Part shown: positions 24,106 through 33,307 of the stretch, one piece after another
How positions within the stretch are numbered: position 1 is the first letter of the stretch
Layout of the letters: the number at the start of each line of letters is the position of its first letter
Assembly: GCA_024276195.1 (NCBI GenBank)
Contig: JAJRXR010000013.1
Coordinates: 1 to 53,679 of the forward strand
Length of the DNA stretch: 53,679 nt
From: Planctomycetota bacterium
GTDB lineage: Bacteria; Planctomycetota; Phycisphaerae; Phycisphaerales; UBA1924
Direction of reading: 5' to 3'
Notes under the pieces: model-generated
Told to the model about the DNA's origin: nothing
What the model saw: only the letters and a program-made list of their open reading frames with translations
Database searches by the model: none
Program-made: the position numbers and the translations under genes

Positions 24106-25635
24106 ATGGGCAGTGAACCGGGGGGTGAGGACGGCGCGCGCGCACATGGTGATGAGCGTGGCGCGGGGTTGTTTCATGAGGAGCTGGGCGGGGCGCCCGG
24201 GACGGACGACGAGCTGCACTCGTGGATCGAGGAGCATCTGGGTGTGGTCATCGCGCGCCGGGCGTTGGTCGAGGGGCACACGGCGCCGTTCGAGTACATC
24301 CGGCACTCGTTCTTTGAGACGGAAACGCCTCGGGATTGCGTGGTGTGGGCGAACCGGGGCGGGGGGAAGACGTTTCTGGCAGCGATCGCGTCGGTGCTGG
24401 ACCTGGTGTTCAAGGACGGGATCGAGATCCGGGTGCTGGGCGGGTCGCTCGAGCAGGCGGGGCGGATGCACGCGCACCTGCGCGAGCTGCTCTCACGCCC
24501 GGGCCTGGCGCACACGATCGACGGGCGCATCACCGAGCGCCGTGTACGTCTGCGCAACGGGTCGTGTCTGGAGCTGCTGGCGCAGTCGCAGCGGTCTGTC
24601 CGGGGCACGCGCGTGCAGAAGCTCCGGTGCGACGAGGTCGAGCTGTTCGACCCGGAGGTGTGGGAGGCGGCGCAGCTGGTGACGTGCTCGAAGGTGTGCG
24701 CGGGGATCCGGGTGCGCGGGGCGGTGGAATGCCTGAGCACGATGCACGTCGCGTACGGGCTGATGCACCGGATCGTGGGCGAGGCGCGAGCGGGGAACGT
24801 CCGGCGCCTGTTCCGCTGGGGGCTGGTCGATGTGCTGGGTGTGTGCGGGAGCGAGCGGGCGTGCGAGAGTCAGGAGCATGGTCCGTGCGATCTGCTTGAG
24901 GAGTGCGCCGGGCGGGCGAAGGCGCGCGACGAGGCGGGGGCGGCGGCGGGGCACGTCGATGTGGACGATGCGTTGACACAGAAATCCCGCGTGAGCGAGA
25001 GCACATGGCAGAGCGAGATGCTGTGCCTGCGACCGACGCGCTCGGACTGTGTTTTGCCCGAGTTCGGGCGCGAGACGCATGTGGTGCGCGAGGCGCCCGA
25101 GGAGCGCGGCGGGTGGGTGTGGGTCGGGGGGATGGACTTTGGGATCCGATCGCCGACGGTGGTGCTGTGGGGCGGGGTGGACCCGGCGGGGGTGCTGTGG
25201 ATCGTCGATGAGCGGGTCGTCTGCGGCGTGACGCTCGGAGAGCACATCAACGCGATCAAGGCGGCGCCCTGGCCCGCGCTCGCGTGGATCGGTGTGGACC
25301 CGGCGGGCGGGCAACGCTCCGGGCAGACGGGCGTGAGCGACATCCAGGCCATGCGGCGCGAGGGGCTGGTCGTCAAGCACCGACGCATGGGCGTGAGCGA
25401 GGGGCTCGAACTCGTCCGCGTCCGCCTGCGCCCGGCCCAGGGCTCGGCGCGGGTGCTGGTGCATTCGCGCTGCGAGAAGCTGATCGAGTCGCTCGAGACG
25501 TACCGGTACCCGAGGGATCGCCCCGAGTCGCTCGAGCCGGTGAAGGACGGGTCGGACCACGCGGTGGACGCGCTGCGGTACCTGATCCAGAACCTGGACC
25601 GGGGGTACGAGGCGCGGTTTTCGAGGTATGTGTAG
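24106..25635 (+). CDS. Phage terminase large subunit-like protein (orphan)
   Basis: 509 residues. N-terminal packaging ATPase: Walker A NRGGGKT (83-89), Walker B with catalytic pair KLRCDEVELFD (D176, E177). C-terminal RNase H-like nuclease: GGMDFGIRSPTVVLW, WIGVDPAGGQ, and KDGSDHAVDALRYLI supply the three acidic metal ligands. Between the domains a cysteine cluster (CGSERACESQ, HGPCDLLEECAG) could bind zinc. These enzymes cut and pump phage DNA into capsids. No portal, protease, capsid or tail gene is present within reach, so this is a remnant or domesticated terminase. ATG 24106 is preferred over TTG 24103 because GAGGGGGG precedes it. Confidence 0.88.
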   Translation: MGSEPGGEDGARAHGDERGAGLFHEELGGAPGTDDELHSWIEEHLGVVIARRALVEGHTAPFEYIRHSFFETETPRDCVVWANRGGGKTFLAAIASVLDLVFKDGIEIRVLGGSLEQAGRMHAHLRELLSRPGLAHTIDGRITERRVRLRNGSCLELLAQSQRSVRGTRVQKLRCDEVELFDPEVWEAAQLVTCSKVCAGIRVRGAVECLSTMHVAYGLMHRIVGEARAGNVRRLFRWGLVDVLGVCGSERACESQEHGPCDLLEECAGRAKARDEAGAAAGHVDVDDALTQKSRVSESTWQSEMLCLRPTRSDCVLPEFGRETHVVREAPEERGGWVWVGGMDFGIRSPTVVLWGGVDPAGVLWIVDERVVCGVTLGEHINAIKAAPWPALAWIGVDPAGGQRSGQTGVSDIQAMRREGLVVKHRRMGVSEGLELVRVRLRPAQGSARVLVHSRCEKLIESLETYRYPRDRPESLEPVKDGSDHAVDALRYLIQNLDRGYEARFSRYV

Positions 25636-27750: not shown

Positions 27751-30189
27751 ATGAGCCAGATCCCAAATCCAGAGCTGTTTGAACGACTCGGCGTGTTTTA
27801 TCTCGGGCGCGAGCTGTCGCCCGGGGGAGAGCTCGGCGGGGCGTTGTTGTACGACTCGCGCGACCTGACGACCCACGCGGTGTGCGTGGGGATGACGGGC
27901 TCGGGCAAGACGGGGCTGTGTATCTCGTTGCTGGAGGAGGCGGCGCTCGACGGGGTGCCGGCGATCTGCATCGACCCGAAGGGGGACCTGGGCAACCTGC
28001 TGCTGACGTTCCCGGAGCTGCGGGGCGAGGACTTTGCGCCGTGGATCGACGAGGCGGACGCGCGGCGCAAGGGGATGAGCGCGGGCGAGTACGCGCAGAA
28101 CCGGGCGGAGCTGTGGAAGAAGGGGCTGGGCGAGTGGGGGCAGGACGGGGAGCGGATCCGGAAGCTGCGTGAGAGCGCCGAGGTGACGATCTACACACCC
28201 GGGAGCAGCGCGGGGAGGCAGATCACGCCGTTGACGTCGTTCAAGGCGCCTCCGCCTGAGATGCGGGGCGATGATGAGGCGATGCGCGAGCGTGTGAGCG
28301 CGTCGGCGTCGGGGCTTTTGGCGCTGCTGGGCGAGGACACGGACCCGGTCAAGAGCCGGGCGCACATCCTGATCTCGACAATCCTGGGCGAGGCGTGGGG
28401 CAGGGGGCAGGACCTGGACCTGGGCGAGCTGATCCGTCGGGTGCAGTCGCCGCCGGTCGAGCGGATCGGGGTGATGAGCGTGGACGCGTTCATGAGCGAG
28501 AAGGACCGGGGCAAGCTGGCGATGACGATCAACAACCTGCTGGCGTCGCCGAGCTTTGCGGGGTGGATGCAGGGCGAGGCGATGGATGTTGATCGCCTGC
28601 TGCGCACGGGCGAGGGGAAGGCGCGGATCTCGATCATGTCGATTGCGCACCTGAGCGAGGCGGAGCGGCAGTTCTTCGTGACGCTGCTGCTGGGCGAGGT
28701 GATCGCGTGGATGCGTCGCCAGCCCGGGACGGGGTCGTTGCGGGCGATTTTGTACATGGACGAGGTGTTCGGGTATTTCCCGCCGACGGAGAACCCGCCG
28801 ACGAAGCGGTTGTTGCTGACGCTGATGAAGCAGGCTCGGGCGTACGGGCTGGGGTGTGTGCTGGCGACGCAGAACCCGGTGGACCTGGATTACAAGGGGC
28901 TGAGCAACGCGGGGACGTGGCTGCTCGGGCGGTTGTCCACGGAGCGGGACAAGAGGCGCGTGCTCGACGGGCTCGAGGGGACGGCGGGGGGGACGGGGAT
29001 CAGCCGGCGCGAAGCGGACAAGATTTTGTCGTCGCTTCGCCCGCGTGAGTTTTTGATGCAGAACGTGCACGAGGACGGGGCGGTGCTGATGCGGACGCGC
29101 TGGGCGATGAGCTATCTGCGCGGGCCGATGACGCGGGAGGAGATCAGGCGTTTGACGCCGGATGTGGAGCAGGCTCCGGCGCCTGCGGGCGCGCGCACGT
29201 TCGCGGCGCCAGCGCCCGAGAAGCTGGCCCCGGAGCCGATCGCGCCGATGGGCGTGGAGATGGGGTATGTGCCGATCGCGCGGTCGATCTCGTCGGAGGA
29301 CAGGCTTGTTTACAGGCCGGCGGTGCTGGGGTCGTGCCAGCTTCATCATGTCCGCGTCGCGGCCAAGATCGACCAGTGGGAGGACCTGACATTGCTGGCG
29401 CTGGTCGATGAGGGGCAGGCGTCGGCGGACTGGCAGGACGCGATCAAGGTTGGCGATCTGCGCGATCAGCTCGAAGACACCCCGGACACGCGGGGGACGT
29501 TCGCCCCGATCAGCGGGGCGATCGACGAGCGGAAGGACTTTACCAAGTGGAAGCGGTCGCTGAGCGCGTTCGCGTACCGCGAGTATGCGCGCGATGTGCT
29601 GCACTGCAAGAGCCTCAAGGCCTATTCGGCGCTGGGCGAGACCAAGGAGCACTTCCGCGTGCGCCTGGGCGAGCTGCTGCGTGAGGAGCGCGACGAGGCG
29701 CTCGACAAGATGCGCACGAAGTACGCCTCCAAGCTGGCGACGCTCGAGGACCGGGTGCGCCGGGCGGAGCAAAGAGTCGAAGTAGAGAAGGAGCAGTACA
29801 GGCAGTCGGGCCTGCAGACGGCGGTGTCGATCGGCAGCGGGTTGCTCGGGGCGCTGCTGGGGCGGAAGAAGATGAGCGTGACGAACGCGAGGCGGGCGGG
29901 GAGTGCCGCGAGCAAGGCGGCGCGGACCGGCAAGGAGCGCGGCGACATCGCGCGGTCACGCGAGAACGTCGAGGCCCTGCGCGAGCGGTACCGCAAGCTC
30001 GAGCTGGAGTTCGACGACGAGATCAGCTCGATCGAGCGGGAGATGGACGTGGACGCGCTGGAGCTGGGCGTGATCCGGGTGCCTCCCCGGAAGGGTGACA
30101 TGAACCCGGCGGAGGCGGTGCTGGTGTGGGCGCCGTTCCGGGTGGGGGCGGATGGGCGGGCGGAGGCGGCGTTTGAGGTGGAGGTGTAA
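27751..30189 (+). CDS. HerA/FtsK-like ATP-binding protein (DUF87/DUF853 type)
   Basis: 812 residues. A HerA-type ATPase with Walker A GMTGSGKT (47-54), IDPKGDLGN in place of a typical post-Walker strand, Walker B ILYMDEVFGYFPP (about 330), then LATQNPVDLDYKGLSNAGTW and the arginine-rich segment LSTERDKRRVLDGLEG. The C-terminal third has a coiled coil (about 635-680 and 730-765). Relatives are hexameric DNA pumps or translocases; no NurA nuclease partner is adjacent, so the substrate is open. TAGACT at 27736 and the lack of a Shine-Dalgarno support ATG 27751. It converges on the ferredoxin gene. Confidence 0.88.
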   Translation: MSQIPNPELFERLGVFYLGRELSPGGELGGALLYDSRDLTTHAVCVGMTGSGKTGLCISLLEEAALDGVPAICIDPKGDLGNLLLTFPELRGEDFAPWIDEADARRKGMSAGEYAQNRAELWKKGLGEWGQDGERIRKLRESAEVTIYTPGSSAGRQITPLTSFKAPPPEMRGDDEAMRERVSASASGLLALLGEDTDPVKSRAHILISTILGEAWGRGQDLDLGELIRRVQSPPVERIGVMSVDAFMSEKDRGKLAMTINNLLASPSFAGWMQGEAMDVDRLLRTGEGKARISIMSIAHLSEAERQFFVTLLLGEVIAWMRRQPGTGSLRAILYMDEVFGYFPPTENPPTKRLLLTLMKQARAYGLGCVLATQNPVDLDYKGLSNAGTWLLGRLSTERDKRRVLDGLEGTAGGTGISRREADKILSSLRPREFLMQNVHEDGAVLMRTRWAMSYLRGPMTREEIRRLTPDVEQAPAPAGARTFAAPAPEKLAPEPIAPMGVEMGYVPIARSISSEDRLVYRPAVLGSCQLHHVRVAAKIDQWEDLTLLALVDEGQASADWQDAIKVGDLRDQLEDTPDTRGTFAPISGAIDERKDFTKWKRSLSAFAYREYARDVLHCKSLKAYSALGETKEHFRVRLGELLREERDEALDKMRTKYASKLATLEDRVRRAEQRVEVEKEQYRQSGLQTAVSIGSGLLGALLGRKKMSVTNARRAGSAASKAARTGKERGDIARSRENVEALRERYRKLELEFDDEISSIEREMDVDALELGVIRVPPRKGDMNPAEAVLVWAPFRVGADGRAEAAFEVEV

Positions 30190-30196
30190 AGACTGA

Positions 30197-30225
30197 TGGC
30201 CGGTTGGAAACCGGCTCTACCAGGA
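30197..30225. repeat. Palindromic repeat module B
   Basis: GCCGGTTGGAAACCGGC with the tail ctctaccagg, in the 46-base gap between two convergent genes. The stem could act as a bidirectional terminator. Module A is absent here. Confidence 0.85.
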
Positions 30226-30499: not shown

Positions 30500-30597
30500 G
30501 ACAAATGCTCCGATTGAACCCGCCCAGAGCTTGGGCGGGTCCAGACTCTATCCCCCGGCGGCGGGCGGGGTGGGGGTGGGGTGTTGAGCAACGAAAT

Positions 30598-30662
30598 CCG
30601 AGCCGCGAGCGTGAGCTCGCGACGAACCCCGCCATTCTCGCGAGCTCACGCTCGCGGCTCGG
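30598..30662. repeat. Inverted repeat with 25-bp perfect arms
   Basis: Arms 30598-30622 and 30638-30662 are exact reverse complements with a 15-base loop. It lies ten bases past the metG stop (leftward) and 99 bases before the ferredoxin start, so it can form a strong 3' hairpin on the metG transcript. No U tract follows; mRNA stabilisation or repeat-element origin are both possible. Confidence 0.9.
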
Positions 30663-30672
30663 AATGAGGTGG

Positions 30673-32544
30673 CTACGCCCCGGGGGCGGGGTCGTTGGGG
30701 TCGGCGCGCATGAAGAGGGCGTCGCCCTTGGTGATTTTCTGGCCCGGCTTGAGCGAGTGGGGGCCGCCCCACTGGGCGAGTTCGGCGAGGGGCGCGACGA
30801 AGCCGGAGTTGGGGTCGGCGGGGTCGTTGAGGTGGGCGCAGTTCCAGTTGCGCCAGACCTCGGCCATTTTCGAGGGCATCGCTGGGGCGAGGAGGAGGGT
30901 GGCGATACGGAGGGCTTCGGCGCAGGAGTAGAGGATGGTCGAGAGGGCCTTGTCGGCGTGTTCGTGCTCGTCCAGGCGTTTGGCGAGGGTGAAGGGGGCG
31001 GCGTAGCTGATGAAGTCGTCCACCTCGCGGACGAGCTTGCGCCCGAGGGCGAGGGCGGTGTCGAGCTGGGGGGTTGAGTAGTCGGCTGTTGCGCTCTGGA
31101 TCGCGTCCGATGTGAGCTGCGCGAAGTCGAAGGTGCGCTCGGGATCGTCAACGGGCTTGCCGGCGGCGGCGCGGGCTTCGAGCGCGATGCCCAGGGCCTT
31201 GCCGCCGGGGAGGCCGAACTGACCATTGCAGGTCCGGTCGCAGGCGCCGCCCAGGTACTTGTCGATCATTTTGCCCACGCGGCTGACGGCGTTGCCGACG
31301 CCGTTGGCCAGGTCCGCGTTGTACACCTCGACAAAGCGTTTGTGCGCAAAGTCCGAGTCGGTCGCGCCGAGCGGGCCTTGGGTCATCAGGAACCAGCGGA
31401 CGGCGTCGAGGCTGTACTTGTCCGCGTAAGCCCGGAGCTGGTCGATCTCGATGAAGTTGCCCAAGCTTTTGGACATCTTCGTGCCCTCGCTGATCCAGTA
31501 GGCGTGGGCGTAGATGGTTTTGGGGGGTTGCTCGCCGAGGGCGCGGAGGAGGCAGGGCCAGATCACGGCGTGGAACCAGAGGATGTCCTTGGCCATGAAG
31601 TGGACGATGTCGGGGTGGGTCGGCTCGCCGGGTAGATCGGCTCTCCGAGCCGATCCGTCTTCAGTGGTCGAAATGCTCCGATCGGCTCGGAGAGCCGATC
31701 TACCCGGGATCGGCTCGGAGAGCCGATCCGTGTTTGTGGGCGGGGTTCGGATCGGCTCGGAGAGCCGATCTACGCGGCGGGGCCAGTACTTGCGCAGGTC
31801 GTCGGTATCGACGACGGTCAGGTAGTTGCACAGCGCCTCAATCCAGACGTAGATGCGGTGCTCGGGATCGCCCGGCATCGCGATGCCCCAGTCGGAGTCT
31901 TCGGGCTTGATCTTGCGCGAGACGGGCACAGGGCGGAGGCCCTGCTTGAGGCGACCGAGGACTTCGTTTTTGCGCTGCTCGGGGAGGACGCTGATGGCGC
32001 CGGACTCGATCTGGTCCTTGAGCCATGACTCGTGTTTGTCGAGCTTGAAGAAGTAGTTCTGTTCGGTGCGCTTTTCGAGGGGCTTGCCGGTGACGGGGCT
32101 TTTGAAGTCGTGCTCTTTGGCGACGGTCTCGGTGACGTACTCCTCCTGGGAGGGGGCGAACCAGCCGACGTAGTCGCCGAGTTCGATGTCGCCCGAGTCG
32201 ATGAGGCGCTGGATGTAGGCGCTGGCGCGGTCTTTGTGGCGGGCCTCGGTGGTGCGCACGAAGTCGTCGTTGGAGAAGTTCATGAAGGCGAAGGCCTCCT
32301 TGAACCGCTCGGCGTTGAGCGTGGCCCAGTCCATGGGCGACATGTCGCGCTCGCGGGCGGAGGTGACGATTTTTTCGGCGTGTTCGTCGGTGCCGGTGAG
32401 GAAGAAGACGTCACGCCCGATCAGGCGCTGAGCCCGGGCGGCGACGTCGGCCACGAGCGTGGTGTAGCAGTGCCCGATGTGGGGGCGGTCGTTGACGTAG
32501 TAGATGGGCGTGGTGATGTAGTAGGGGGCTTTGGGGGCAGGCAT
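30673..32544 (-). CDS. metG: Methionyl-tRNA synthetase with an in-frame palindromic-repeat insertion
   Basis: 623 residues from ATG 32544. Class I synthetase that charges tRNA-Met: HIGH at 22-25 (NDRPHIGHCYTT), the connective region without the zinc cysteines (GWFAPSQEEYVTETV), the KMSKS loop (EGTKMSKSLGNF) and an anticodon-binding helical domain. Between KYWPR and HPDIVHFMAKDI, residues ~257-309 are encoded by four copies of a GATCGGCTCGGAGAGCCGATC-type palindrome and spacers (RLSEPI, SALRAD, SARRAD). The frame stays open. TAGACT lies five bases upstream of the start and no Shine-Dalgarno is visible. Being essential and apparently single in this window, it probably still works with a surface loop inserted before the active-site strand. 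Confidence 0.93.
   Translation of the reverse strand: MPAPKAPYYITTPIYYVNDRPHIGHCYTTLVADVAARAQRLIGRDVFFLTGTDEHAEKIVTSARERDMSPMDWATLNAERFKEAFAFMNFSNDDFVRTTEARHKDRASAYIQRLIDSGDIELGDYVGWFAPSQEEYVTETVAKEHDFKSPVTGKPLEKRTEQNYFFKLDKHESWLKDQIESGAISVLPEQRKNEVLGRLKQGLRPVPVSRKIKPEDSDWGIAMPGDPEHRIYVWIEALCNYLTVVDTDDLRKYWPRRVDRLSEPIRTPPTNTDRLSEPIPGRSALRADRSISTTEDGSARRADLPGEPTHPDIVHFMAKDILWFHAVIWPCLLRALGEQPPKTIYAHAYWISEGTKMSKSLGNFIEIDQLRAYADKYSLDAVRWFLMTQGPLGATDSDFAHKRFVEVYNADLANGVGNAVSRVGKMIDKYLGGACDRTCNGQFGLPGGKALGIALEARAAAGKPVDDPERTFDFAQLTSDAIQSATADYSTPQLDTALALGRKLVREVDDFISYAAPFTLAKRLDEHEHADKALSTILYSCAEALRIATLLLAPAMPSKMAEVWRNWNCAHLNDPADPNSGFVAPLAELAQWGGPHSLKPGQKITKGDALFMRADPNDPAPGA
31634..31770. repeat. 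Four copies of palindrome C within the metG coding sequence
   Basis: Copies at about 31634-31655, 31680-31700, 31708-31728 and 31750-31770, each a 21-bp near-perfect palindrome GATCGGCTCGGAGAGCCGATC (or its complement). The whole inserted stretch (about 31618-31776, 159 bases, divisible by three) adds about 53 codons to metG. Confidence 0.93.
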
Positions 32545-32555: not shown

Positions 32556-32559
32556 GGTA

Positions 32560-32714
32560 GATCGGCTCTCCGAGCCGATTCGGGGCGACGTGTAGATCGG
32601 CTCTCCGAGCCGATTTTGGATTCAGGCACGTCGTTTCTCCATCCCACCCGGGGCGACTCAACAACGCGCCCAGGCGTTCGCCTCCCAACGCCGGATCGGC
32701 TCGGAGAGCCGATC
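32560..32714. repeat. Three copies of palindrome C in the metG/DUF4174 divergent gap
   Basis: Copies at 32560-32579, 32595-32614 and 32694-32714, the last followed by a half copy near 32720. They fill much of the 214-base region shared by the two divergent promoters. Confidence 0.93.
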
Positions 32715-32746
32715 TACCCAAGAGCCGATCGACGCGACCTATCGGG

Positions 32747-32758: not shown

Positions 32759-33307
32759 ATGGGATATGGACACATGATGACGCGACGGGCGGGGCTGGTG
32801 GCGGGGCTGGTCGTGGGGTTGGGTGCAACTCTGGGGTCGGGGTGTGGGAAGAAGGCGTATGTGCGTGACACGACGCCGACGCTTCCGGAGGAGCTGGACC
32901 CGATGCTGGTGCTCTTCGAGGAGGCGCCTGTTGAACAGACGCGGGCGGGTCGGCGCCCGCTGGTGATCTTCGCGCTCTCGGCGGATGACCCTGCGGCGCT
33001 CGAGCAGGTGGCGTTGGTCCGGGAGGCGAAGGCGGGGTTTGAGGACCGGGACATGATGCTTATTGAGGTGTACGAGGTCGGGATATCGAGGCGCGAGGGG
33101 CGCCCGATGAGCCAAGCTTCGGCGGTGGAATGGCACGAGCGGTTCCGGGCGAGCACGTGGCCCGTGGAGGTGGTGCTCGTGGGCAAGGACGGGGGCGTGA
33201 AGCGCCGGTCGGCCGGGTCTGCGGTGATGAGCGAGCTGTTTGAGCAGATCGACCAGATGCCCGTGCGCAAGCGGGAGGTGTACGAGCGGGCGCGGGACGG
33301 GGGCTGA
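32759..33307 (+). CDS. DUF4174-like exported protein, possible lipoprotein
   Basis: 182 residues. An N-terminal hydrophobic signal (about 9-27, LVAGLVVGLGATLGSGC) ends at a cysteine in a non-ideal lipobox (Gly-Ser-Gly-Cys). The C-terminal part (RPLVIFALSADDPA, EDRDMMLIEVYEV, VEVVLVGKDGGVKRRS, ELFEQIDQMPVRKREV) matches the pattern of DUF4174, a thioredoxin-fold-like domain lacking the CxxC pair. Function unknown. Divergent from metG across a repeat-filled gap. ATG 32759 is chosen because of TAGGCT six bases upstream; ATG 32774 or 32777 are alternatives. Confidence 0.75.
   Translation: MGYGHMMTRRAGLVAGLVVGLGATLGSGCGKKAYVRDTTPTLPEELDPMLVLFEEAPVEQTRAGRRPLVIFALSADDPAALEQVALVREAKAGFEDRDMMLIEVYEVGISRREGRPMSQASAVEWHERFRASTWPVEVVLVGKDGGVKRRSAGSAVMSELFEQIDQMPVRKREVYERARDGG

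Follow-up and report, generated by a model that had tools for sequence, protein, structure and literature searches.

REP palindromes in frame in a planctomycete methionyl-tRNA synthetase and their probable relation to a transposase gene embedded in leuS

The DNA analysed in this study, termed the window, covers positions 1 to 53,679 (53,679 nucleotides) of contig JAJRXR010000013.1 from a Planctomycetota bacterium of the order Phycisphaerales (GCA_024276195.1; 3.04 Mb in 88 contigs, 91% complete). This genome is denoted G000, with G-numbers referring to the genomes compared, L-numbers to fetched loci and C-numbers to contigs of G000. The minus strand of the window contains metG (30673–32544, start ATG at 32544, stop at 30673), which encodes a methionyl-tRNA synthetase (MetRS) of 623 residues, as defined by matches to the Pfam family tRNA-synt_1g (2.2e-84) and to Aquifex MetRS (PDB 2csx, 7.2e-91). 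In the alignment with the latter, residues 257–312 have no aligned counterpart, being flanked by chain residues 251 and 252, which places an in-frame insertion of about 56 residues (31609–31776, minus strand) into the turn YWP^xxVHFMAKDI, here referred to as the YWP^VHFMAKDI loop. A previous sequence-only reading had located this insertion nearly exactly, at 31618–31776, and its assignment of four palindromes to an open metG frame is borne out by exact matches: the 21-nucleotide palindrome GATCGGCTCGGAGAGCCGATC is found within the frame in four mismatch-free copies at 31635–31655 (in reverse orientation), 31680–31700, 31708–31728 and 31750–31770. The same reading had described the copies as near-identical, which requires refinement, as the 21-nucleotide core is perfect in all four and a GTAG/CTAC head is present in three. 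Including these heads, the first copy extends over 31632–31655 (plus strand, GTAG at its left) and forms an inverted pair with the second at 31680–31703 (minus), the third consists of a stem without head (31708–31728, minus) and the fourth is again headed (31750–31773, minus). Three additional copies reside in the 5' region of metG, at 32557–32579 (plus, 12 nucleotides before the start codon), at 32592–32614 (plus) and, between metG and a divergent open reading frame at 32759, at 32694–32717 (minus). A chance origin of the palindromes was rejected, since shuffled versions of the window contained on average 0.01 matches at up to three mismatches and a count of 12 was reached in none of 100 shuffles.

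The full unit can be described as GTAG-ATCGGCTC-TCC-GAGCCGAT, comprising a GTAG head, a perfect stem of 8 bp and a loop of 3 nucleotides or, with the hairpin written as one piece, as GTAG-ATCGGCTCTCCGAGCCGAT. With the tetranucleotide directly preceding the short palindrome, this headed unit of 23 nucleotides is found in 25 copies in G000 at up to one mismatch. Judged by this anatomy, the metG palindromes are REP elements. They follow the plan of the Stenotrophomonas REPtron Sm of group 3, whose REP is described as a perfect 8-bp stem with a 3-nucleotide loop and GTAG directly before it (PMC8266576), and share with the GTAG-REP superfamily, as portrayed in PMC3733652, the GTAG head in front of a short palindrome, the arrangement in inverted pairs, the dispersal and the location of some copies in frame. 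The headed unit is open in five of six reading frames, with the single stop-bearing frame owing its stop to the head, and most landings can thus be read through. Among 35 REP types, 28 are open in six frames and 7 in five, resulting in a mean of 5.8 compared to 5.47 for shuffled composition, which argues weakly for design.

To place the insertion in context, we have surveyed 110 metG genes, 108 from genomes of the bacterial family (of 153 with a metG match) and two from outside of it. The loop segment is bare, with a length of 31–32 residues, in 81 of the 110 homologues and longer in 29, indicating that length variation is common in this part of MetRS; some of these additions precede YWP and most lack a hairpin. 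The residues of the G000 insert are absent from all other homologues, leaving G000 as sole carrier among the 110, and the genome, at 91% completeness, contains one metG match only, so that neither relatives with the same residues nor a second complete gene, both considered as objections in the initial reading, were encountered. Hairpin arms of at least 8 bp are found in six of the 110 segments, and in all six codon shuffles match the arm length in only 0–4 of 200 cases. Since this includes L239 and L276, whose hairpins come without extra residues, the shuffle test fails to separate these two from the four with insert. Other in-frame hairpins are located at the same loop in metG of G015 and G134 (L055 and L250), which do not match any of the RAYT termini examined.

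A search of G000 at up to two mismatches identified 32 palindrome copies in 12 clusters, at least five of which contain an inverted pair, while a reversed control sequence did not yield any copy under the same conditions. As assigned from reading frames and Pfam matches, 19 copies reside in frame in nine conserved protein genes, which encode MetRS (4 copies), a carboxyltransferase (3), ClpB (2), UvrA (2), CarB (2), a leucyl-tRNA synthetase (LeuRS, 2), a glutamyl-tRNA synthetase (2), a member of the fumarylacetoacetate hydrolase family (1) and a seryl-tRNA synthetase (1). For the glutamyl-tRNA synthetase, the class derives from Pfam and the specificity for Glu is presumed. Another 7 copies are contained in the gene for RNase P RNA (RF00010, 179 bits; L006, 1193–1946), within two insertions that are long relative to the Rfam model and that we take to be in the P12 and the P15–P17 regions. 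The remaining six are found outside recognised genes, one on C42, two on C57, just before a dihydrofolate reductase domain and inside the open frame of this domain, and three before metG. Of the 32 copies recovered by the genome-wide search that the initial reading had proposed, 26 are thus part of a gene product, either a protein read in frame or RNase P RNA. In this respect G000 differs from the GTAG-REP superfamily, most of whose members are intergenic according to PMC3733652.

Two copies bound a gene of a different kind. On contig C64 of G000, a match to REP-associated tyrosine transposases (RAYTs) at 24148–24558 lies between two inverted palindrome copies, in frame and with LeuRS sequence on both sides. 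This single frame matches the NCBIfam models leuS_bact with 935.6 bits and REP-associated tyrosine transposase with 88.3 bits (cut-off 80). The RAYT is bounded by identical inverted REPs of 24 nucleotides that match the metG copies and thus associate the same repeat with both ends of a RAYT gene. The resulting cassette of about 640 nucleotides, consisting of a REP, the transposase and an inverted REP, does not contain any stop before the host frame resumes, and the stretch between flanking landmarks of LeuRS is 213 residues longer than in its shortest relative. In the 11 genomes with a leuS match, the RAYT is present in G000, G146 and G129, whose LeuRS reads through to its normal end, and absent from the site in seven (G001, G002, G020, G186, G147, G031 and G016), with G186 carrying some other extra residues; G185 was not parsed. 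As no leuS match was found in G003, the comparison with congeners refers to G001 and G002. From a reading of class I synthetases, the insertion place in LeuRS (YWMG^VDLYIGG) seems to correspond to the place in MetRS.

At up to one mismatch, the palindrome is absent from G001–G003, and its headed form is present in 11 of 164 genomes of the family. The highest counts are found in G146 (118) and G000 (25), the two genomes whose leuS RAYT carries the same REP, and nine other genomes contain 1–12 headed copies each. An assembly error, another concern of the initial reading, is unlikely because the repeat is dispersed in G000 and shared, in its headed form, by 10 other family genomes. The leuS RAYT becomes a likely mobiliser by virtue of the same inverted REPs at its ends, the empty leuS site in G001 and G002 and the highest copy numbers in G146 and G000. 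We thus consider it very likely from these sequence relationships that the metG REPs were spread by this cognate RAYT, a HuH/Y1 transposase embedded in leuS of the same genome. None of the RAYTs fetched from the nine other genomes (with one of G094 unfetched) is bounded by the headed palindrome, which counts against a strict pairing of REP and RAYT.

These nine genomes could be used to argue for a different origin, in which the metG palindromes would be protein-coding palindromes of the type known from Rickettsia, unrelated to any transposase of the genome. The comparison to Rickettsia palindromic elements had already been drawn in the sequence-only reading and holds for the in-frame insertion and for the likeness in effect, as both systems, judged by description, place coding palindromes into conserved genes (nine protein genes in G000, in addition to the copies in an RNA gene). 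It does not extend to the machinery, which with the GTAG head and the sequence identity to the ends of the leuS RAYT looks like that of a REP/RAYT system. We know of no transposase for the Rickettsia elements, whereas a candidate is present in G000, and the copy number is highest where the leuS RAYT bears the same REP. We therefore regard an origin unrelated to a transposase as improbable. According to work cited in PMC3733652, the genes that carry Rickettsia elements in frame probably give functional proteins.

A second pair of transposase and repeat is found in rdgB, whose RAYT in G000, G001 and G002 is bounded by GGAG-GGGGGGGCTTCCAGCCCCCCC. At up to one mismatch, the core GGGGGGGCTTCCAGCCCCCCC occurs 9 times in G000, 10 times in G001 and 7 times in G002, where one copy resides in frame in metG at the same loop as the G000 insert. 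The nine copies in G000 include the two bounding the rdgB RAYT, one just before a GcpE domain, four in the frames of an E2 acyltransferase, phosphoglucose isomerase, methylpurine-DNA glycosylase and DnaE, and two in frames without Pfam match.

An alignment of 13 embedded RAYTs was used as query (A1) for a search of 164 family genomes, in which 80 contain a match at 1e-12 and 74 places are found at E ≤3.7e-40, with weaker matches residing mostly in frames of less than 400 residues. In 71 of the 73 fetched places (one of G094 was left out), the RAYT shares a single open frame with a conserved enzyme, the exceptions being one place in G178 with masked stretches and one in G077 at a contig end, where no host was identified. 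The hosts are ValRS (32), RdgB (19) and LeuRS (17, three at site A and 14 at site B in the editing domain), with Hsp70, the IPP transferase MiaA and a BioF/Kbl-type acyltransferase in one case each. The RAYTs do not constitute free-standing genes with their own stop, as there is none between RAYT and host, and host sequence is recognised on both sides in 68 of the 71 cases and on one side in the remaining three. Completeness of the host was judged only where covered, since the fetched stretches sometimes fell short of its C-terminal part. Among 151 genomes of the order, 14 carry a second RAYT type (A2) in the loop of ValRS; elsewhere this type is free-standing. The loop was thus entered by two types of RAYTs. 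With respect to a possible start codon of their own, a methionine in the 60 residues before the core is found in 47 of 73 A1 and 9 of 14 A2 RAYTs, compared to 15 of 17 free-standing ones, proportions that do not discriminate.

Most of these genomes are drafts, and two valS frames end early, in G002 (L102) by a stop 235 residues after the RAYT, with ValRS sequence continuing in that frame, and in G151 (L140) after the RAYT, with ValRS sequence resuming in another frame. Both hosts may be broken, or the drafts may be wrong or misread. As a general explanation, we give hardly any credence to artefacts of assembly or frame, or to broken pseudogenes, in view of the recurrence of in-frame RAYTs across independently assembled genomes, among them G110 with its single contig, the large number of hosts recognised on both sides in one frame, the low dN/dS reported below and the presence of one metG match in each of the 153 genomes with a match and of one valS match in 153 of 155. 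In G110 and G112, two species of one genus, valS (L210, L211) is a mosaic, with a RAYT tract that is 98–100% identical per window of 50 nucleotides and upstream stretches that are only about 60% identical. Because plain recombination would explain the near-identical tract as well, we leave undecided whether the valS RAYT has recently been transferred between the two.

By sequence, the embedded RAYTs have features of transposases. They belong to the Y1_Tnp family (PF01797, over cut-off), their best match in the PDB is TnpA_REP (4er8, 2.9e-10), and the RAYTs in leuS and rdgB of G000, in valS of G002 and at L199 also exceed the cut-off of the NCBIfam model for REP-associated tyrosine transposases (NF047646). 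The two HuH histidines and the tyrosine are invariant in all 13 aligned A1 rows. Inverted terminal palindromes bound 66 of 71 testable A1 and 14 of 14 A2 RAYTs, with clear repeats not found in the remaining five A1 cases, compared to none of 50 (A1) and none of 4 (A2) control windows in the host gene; this count requires 110 residues before and 25 after the core, and L214 and L215 were left out.

As an alternative, we considered whether the RAYTs could be exapted domains, old fusions whose HuH DNA-binding activity is useful to the enzyme or the cell, with the REPs as bystanders. Several properties would be expected from such a scenario. In 16 of 16 hand-picked species pairs, the dN/dS of the RAYT part is 0–0.33, with synonymous sites near saturation in several. 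In a quick tree, in which 11 of 67 inner branches are well supported and L214 and L215 are left out, the host site changes 10 times compared to 34.9 times after shuffling, which indicates that RAYTs cluster by recurring sites, much of which may reflect descent. RAYT lineages thus appear to keep to their own host sites, with some jumps. Finally, RAYT and host distances correlate in a Mantel test for RdgB (r 0.52, n=19) and ValRS (r 0.33, n=31). Conversely, no such correlation is found at LeuRS site B (r –0.01, 13 of 14 rows), the presence in 80 of 164 genomes at 1e-12 is patchy, the host enzymes are functionally unrelated, two RAYT types occupy one ValRS loop, and the inverted REPs at both ends and the dispersed REP copies are difficult to reconcile with bystanders. 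On this balance, we regard exaptation as unlikely.

The embedded RAYTs also resemble inteins with homing endonucleases, where a DNA-cutting enzyme is carried within the reading frame of essential genes, at conserved positions and with a patchy distribution. If the likeness included the mechanism, the insert would be spliced out of the protein. We consider this to be extremely improbable, despite the shared location in frame at recurrent sites of essential genes and the DNA-cutting enzyme inside, as neither Pfam nor NCBIfam detects a Hint or intein domain in the frames scanned, the ends are REP palindromes and REP-only inserts lack any domain.

Beyond the family, A1 matches at 1e-22 are found in 65 of 392 genomes sampled over the phylum. 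The loci in named genomes refer to the best 80 of 539 confirmed ones, obtained with a query that favours embedded RAYTs. Among these best 80 of 539, the RAYT is part of a frame of at least 390 residues at 66 loci and of a shorter frame at 14, and typed motifs assign 52 of the 80 to a known host. Family models confirm AlaRS, IleRS, ThrRS, RecG, PriA, MetH, PurH and a DUF1156 protein as hosts within the same best 80. In this set, 51 of the 66 long-frame and 7 of the 14 short-frame loci have terminal repeats that pass the threshold, and the long-frame loci stem mostly from Planctomycetota and Verrucomicrobiota, Myxococcota and Elusimicrobiota contributing one case each. Taken together, we find the balance tipping modestly towards a class of non-splicing, protein-embedded transposons, in which REP-bounded RAYT cassettes would reside in frame inside essential enzymes, repeatedly enter the same loops where insertions are tolerated and give rise to in-frame palindromes in other proteins and to copies in RNase P RNA, with at least thirteen host families in Planctomycetota and Verrucomicrobiota, several of them seen once, and single cases in two other phyla.

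In the mechanism that we propose for the transposition of REPs by embedded RAYTs, the GTAG head would be the site at which the enzyme cuts REP hairpins in single-stranded DNA. Single REPs or inverted pairs of them would be copied or moved into new places, where they would persist if the landing is in frame in a loop tolerating extra residues. Lacking a stop, the cassette would add a domain to the host enzyme upon translation. Residence in an essential single-copy gene would place expression of the transposase under control of the host and make imprecise loss costly. From the described sequence features, we infer that the RAYTs are probably made and active, that they would be responsible for the REPs in metG and that the host enzymes would work with their inserts.

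In the literature, RAYTs figure as domesticated transposases, encoded separately, whose repeats are mostly extragenic. The sequence-only reading had considered an analogous system of in-frame palindromes in this lineage as undescribed, which does not hold for the palindromes themselves: intragenic GTAG REPs, some in frame and including cases in uvrA and tRNA synthetases, are reported in PMC3733652, and the metG insert alone is therefore a further case of a known phenomenon rather than a new kind. The transposase gene in frame, by contrast, looks undescribed. The group 3 REPtrons share the plan of the REP and a HuH/Y1 TnpA_REP with neighbouring REPs (PMC8266576), whereas the transposase of G000 is not a separate gene, its frame being continuous at either end with that of a housekeeping enzyme. 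Among titles and abstract openings, with few subscription papers covered, we found no report of a RAYT gene embedded in frame in a housekeeping gene. In the genomes analysed, members of the RAYT family seem to reside within tRNA synthetases and repair helicases. Should this interpretation be correct, bacteria would possess intein-like selfish elements that do not need splicing. Their insertion sites would list, in a catalogue provided by nature, the loops at which essential enzymes tolerate insertions, and the elements would be a source of new segments in proteins. It also becomes possible to test how REPs spread, a question still open, with a transposase and its candidate cognate repeat matched in many genomes.

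In the proteins, short peptides that look REP-encoded recur next to embedded RAYTs. GTGVPPV and GTGFQPV are found at L108, L111, L123 and other loci and may help to recognise in-frame REPs at the level of the protein, and the early frame end in valS of G002 adjoins the REP-like peptide RGTGVPPG. Next to A2 RAYTs in valS, the in-frame peptide repeats TSRAREEAG and EHGRPARTNEA (L106), apparently REP copies read as protein, and the short SPKRERGF (L113), apparently REP-derived, were observed. The window itself contains two more palindromes in the vicinity of metG. A REP-like palindrome with a CTAC end at 30200–30222, just after the open reading frame 27751–30189, is similar to the repeat that terminates the rdgB RAYT of G036. 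Beyond the 3' end of metG, an intergenic inverted pair of GCCGCGAGCGTGAGCTCGCG is located at 30597–30663, and the same sequence flanks a free-standing RAYT of the second type in G000 on both sides (L101, at about 2128 and 2702), thus defining a further REP family.
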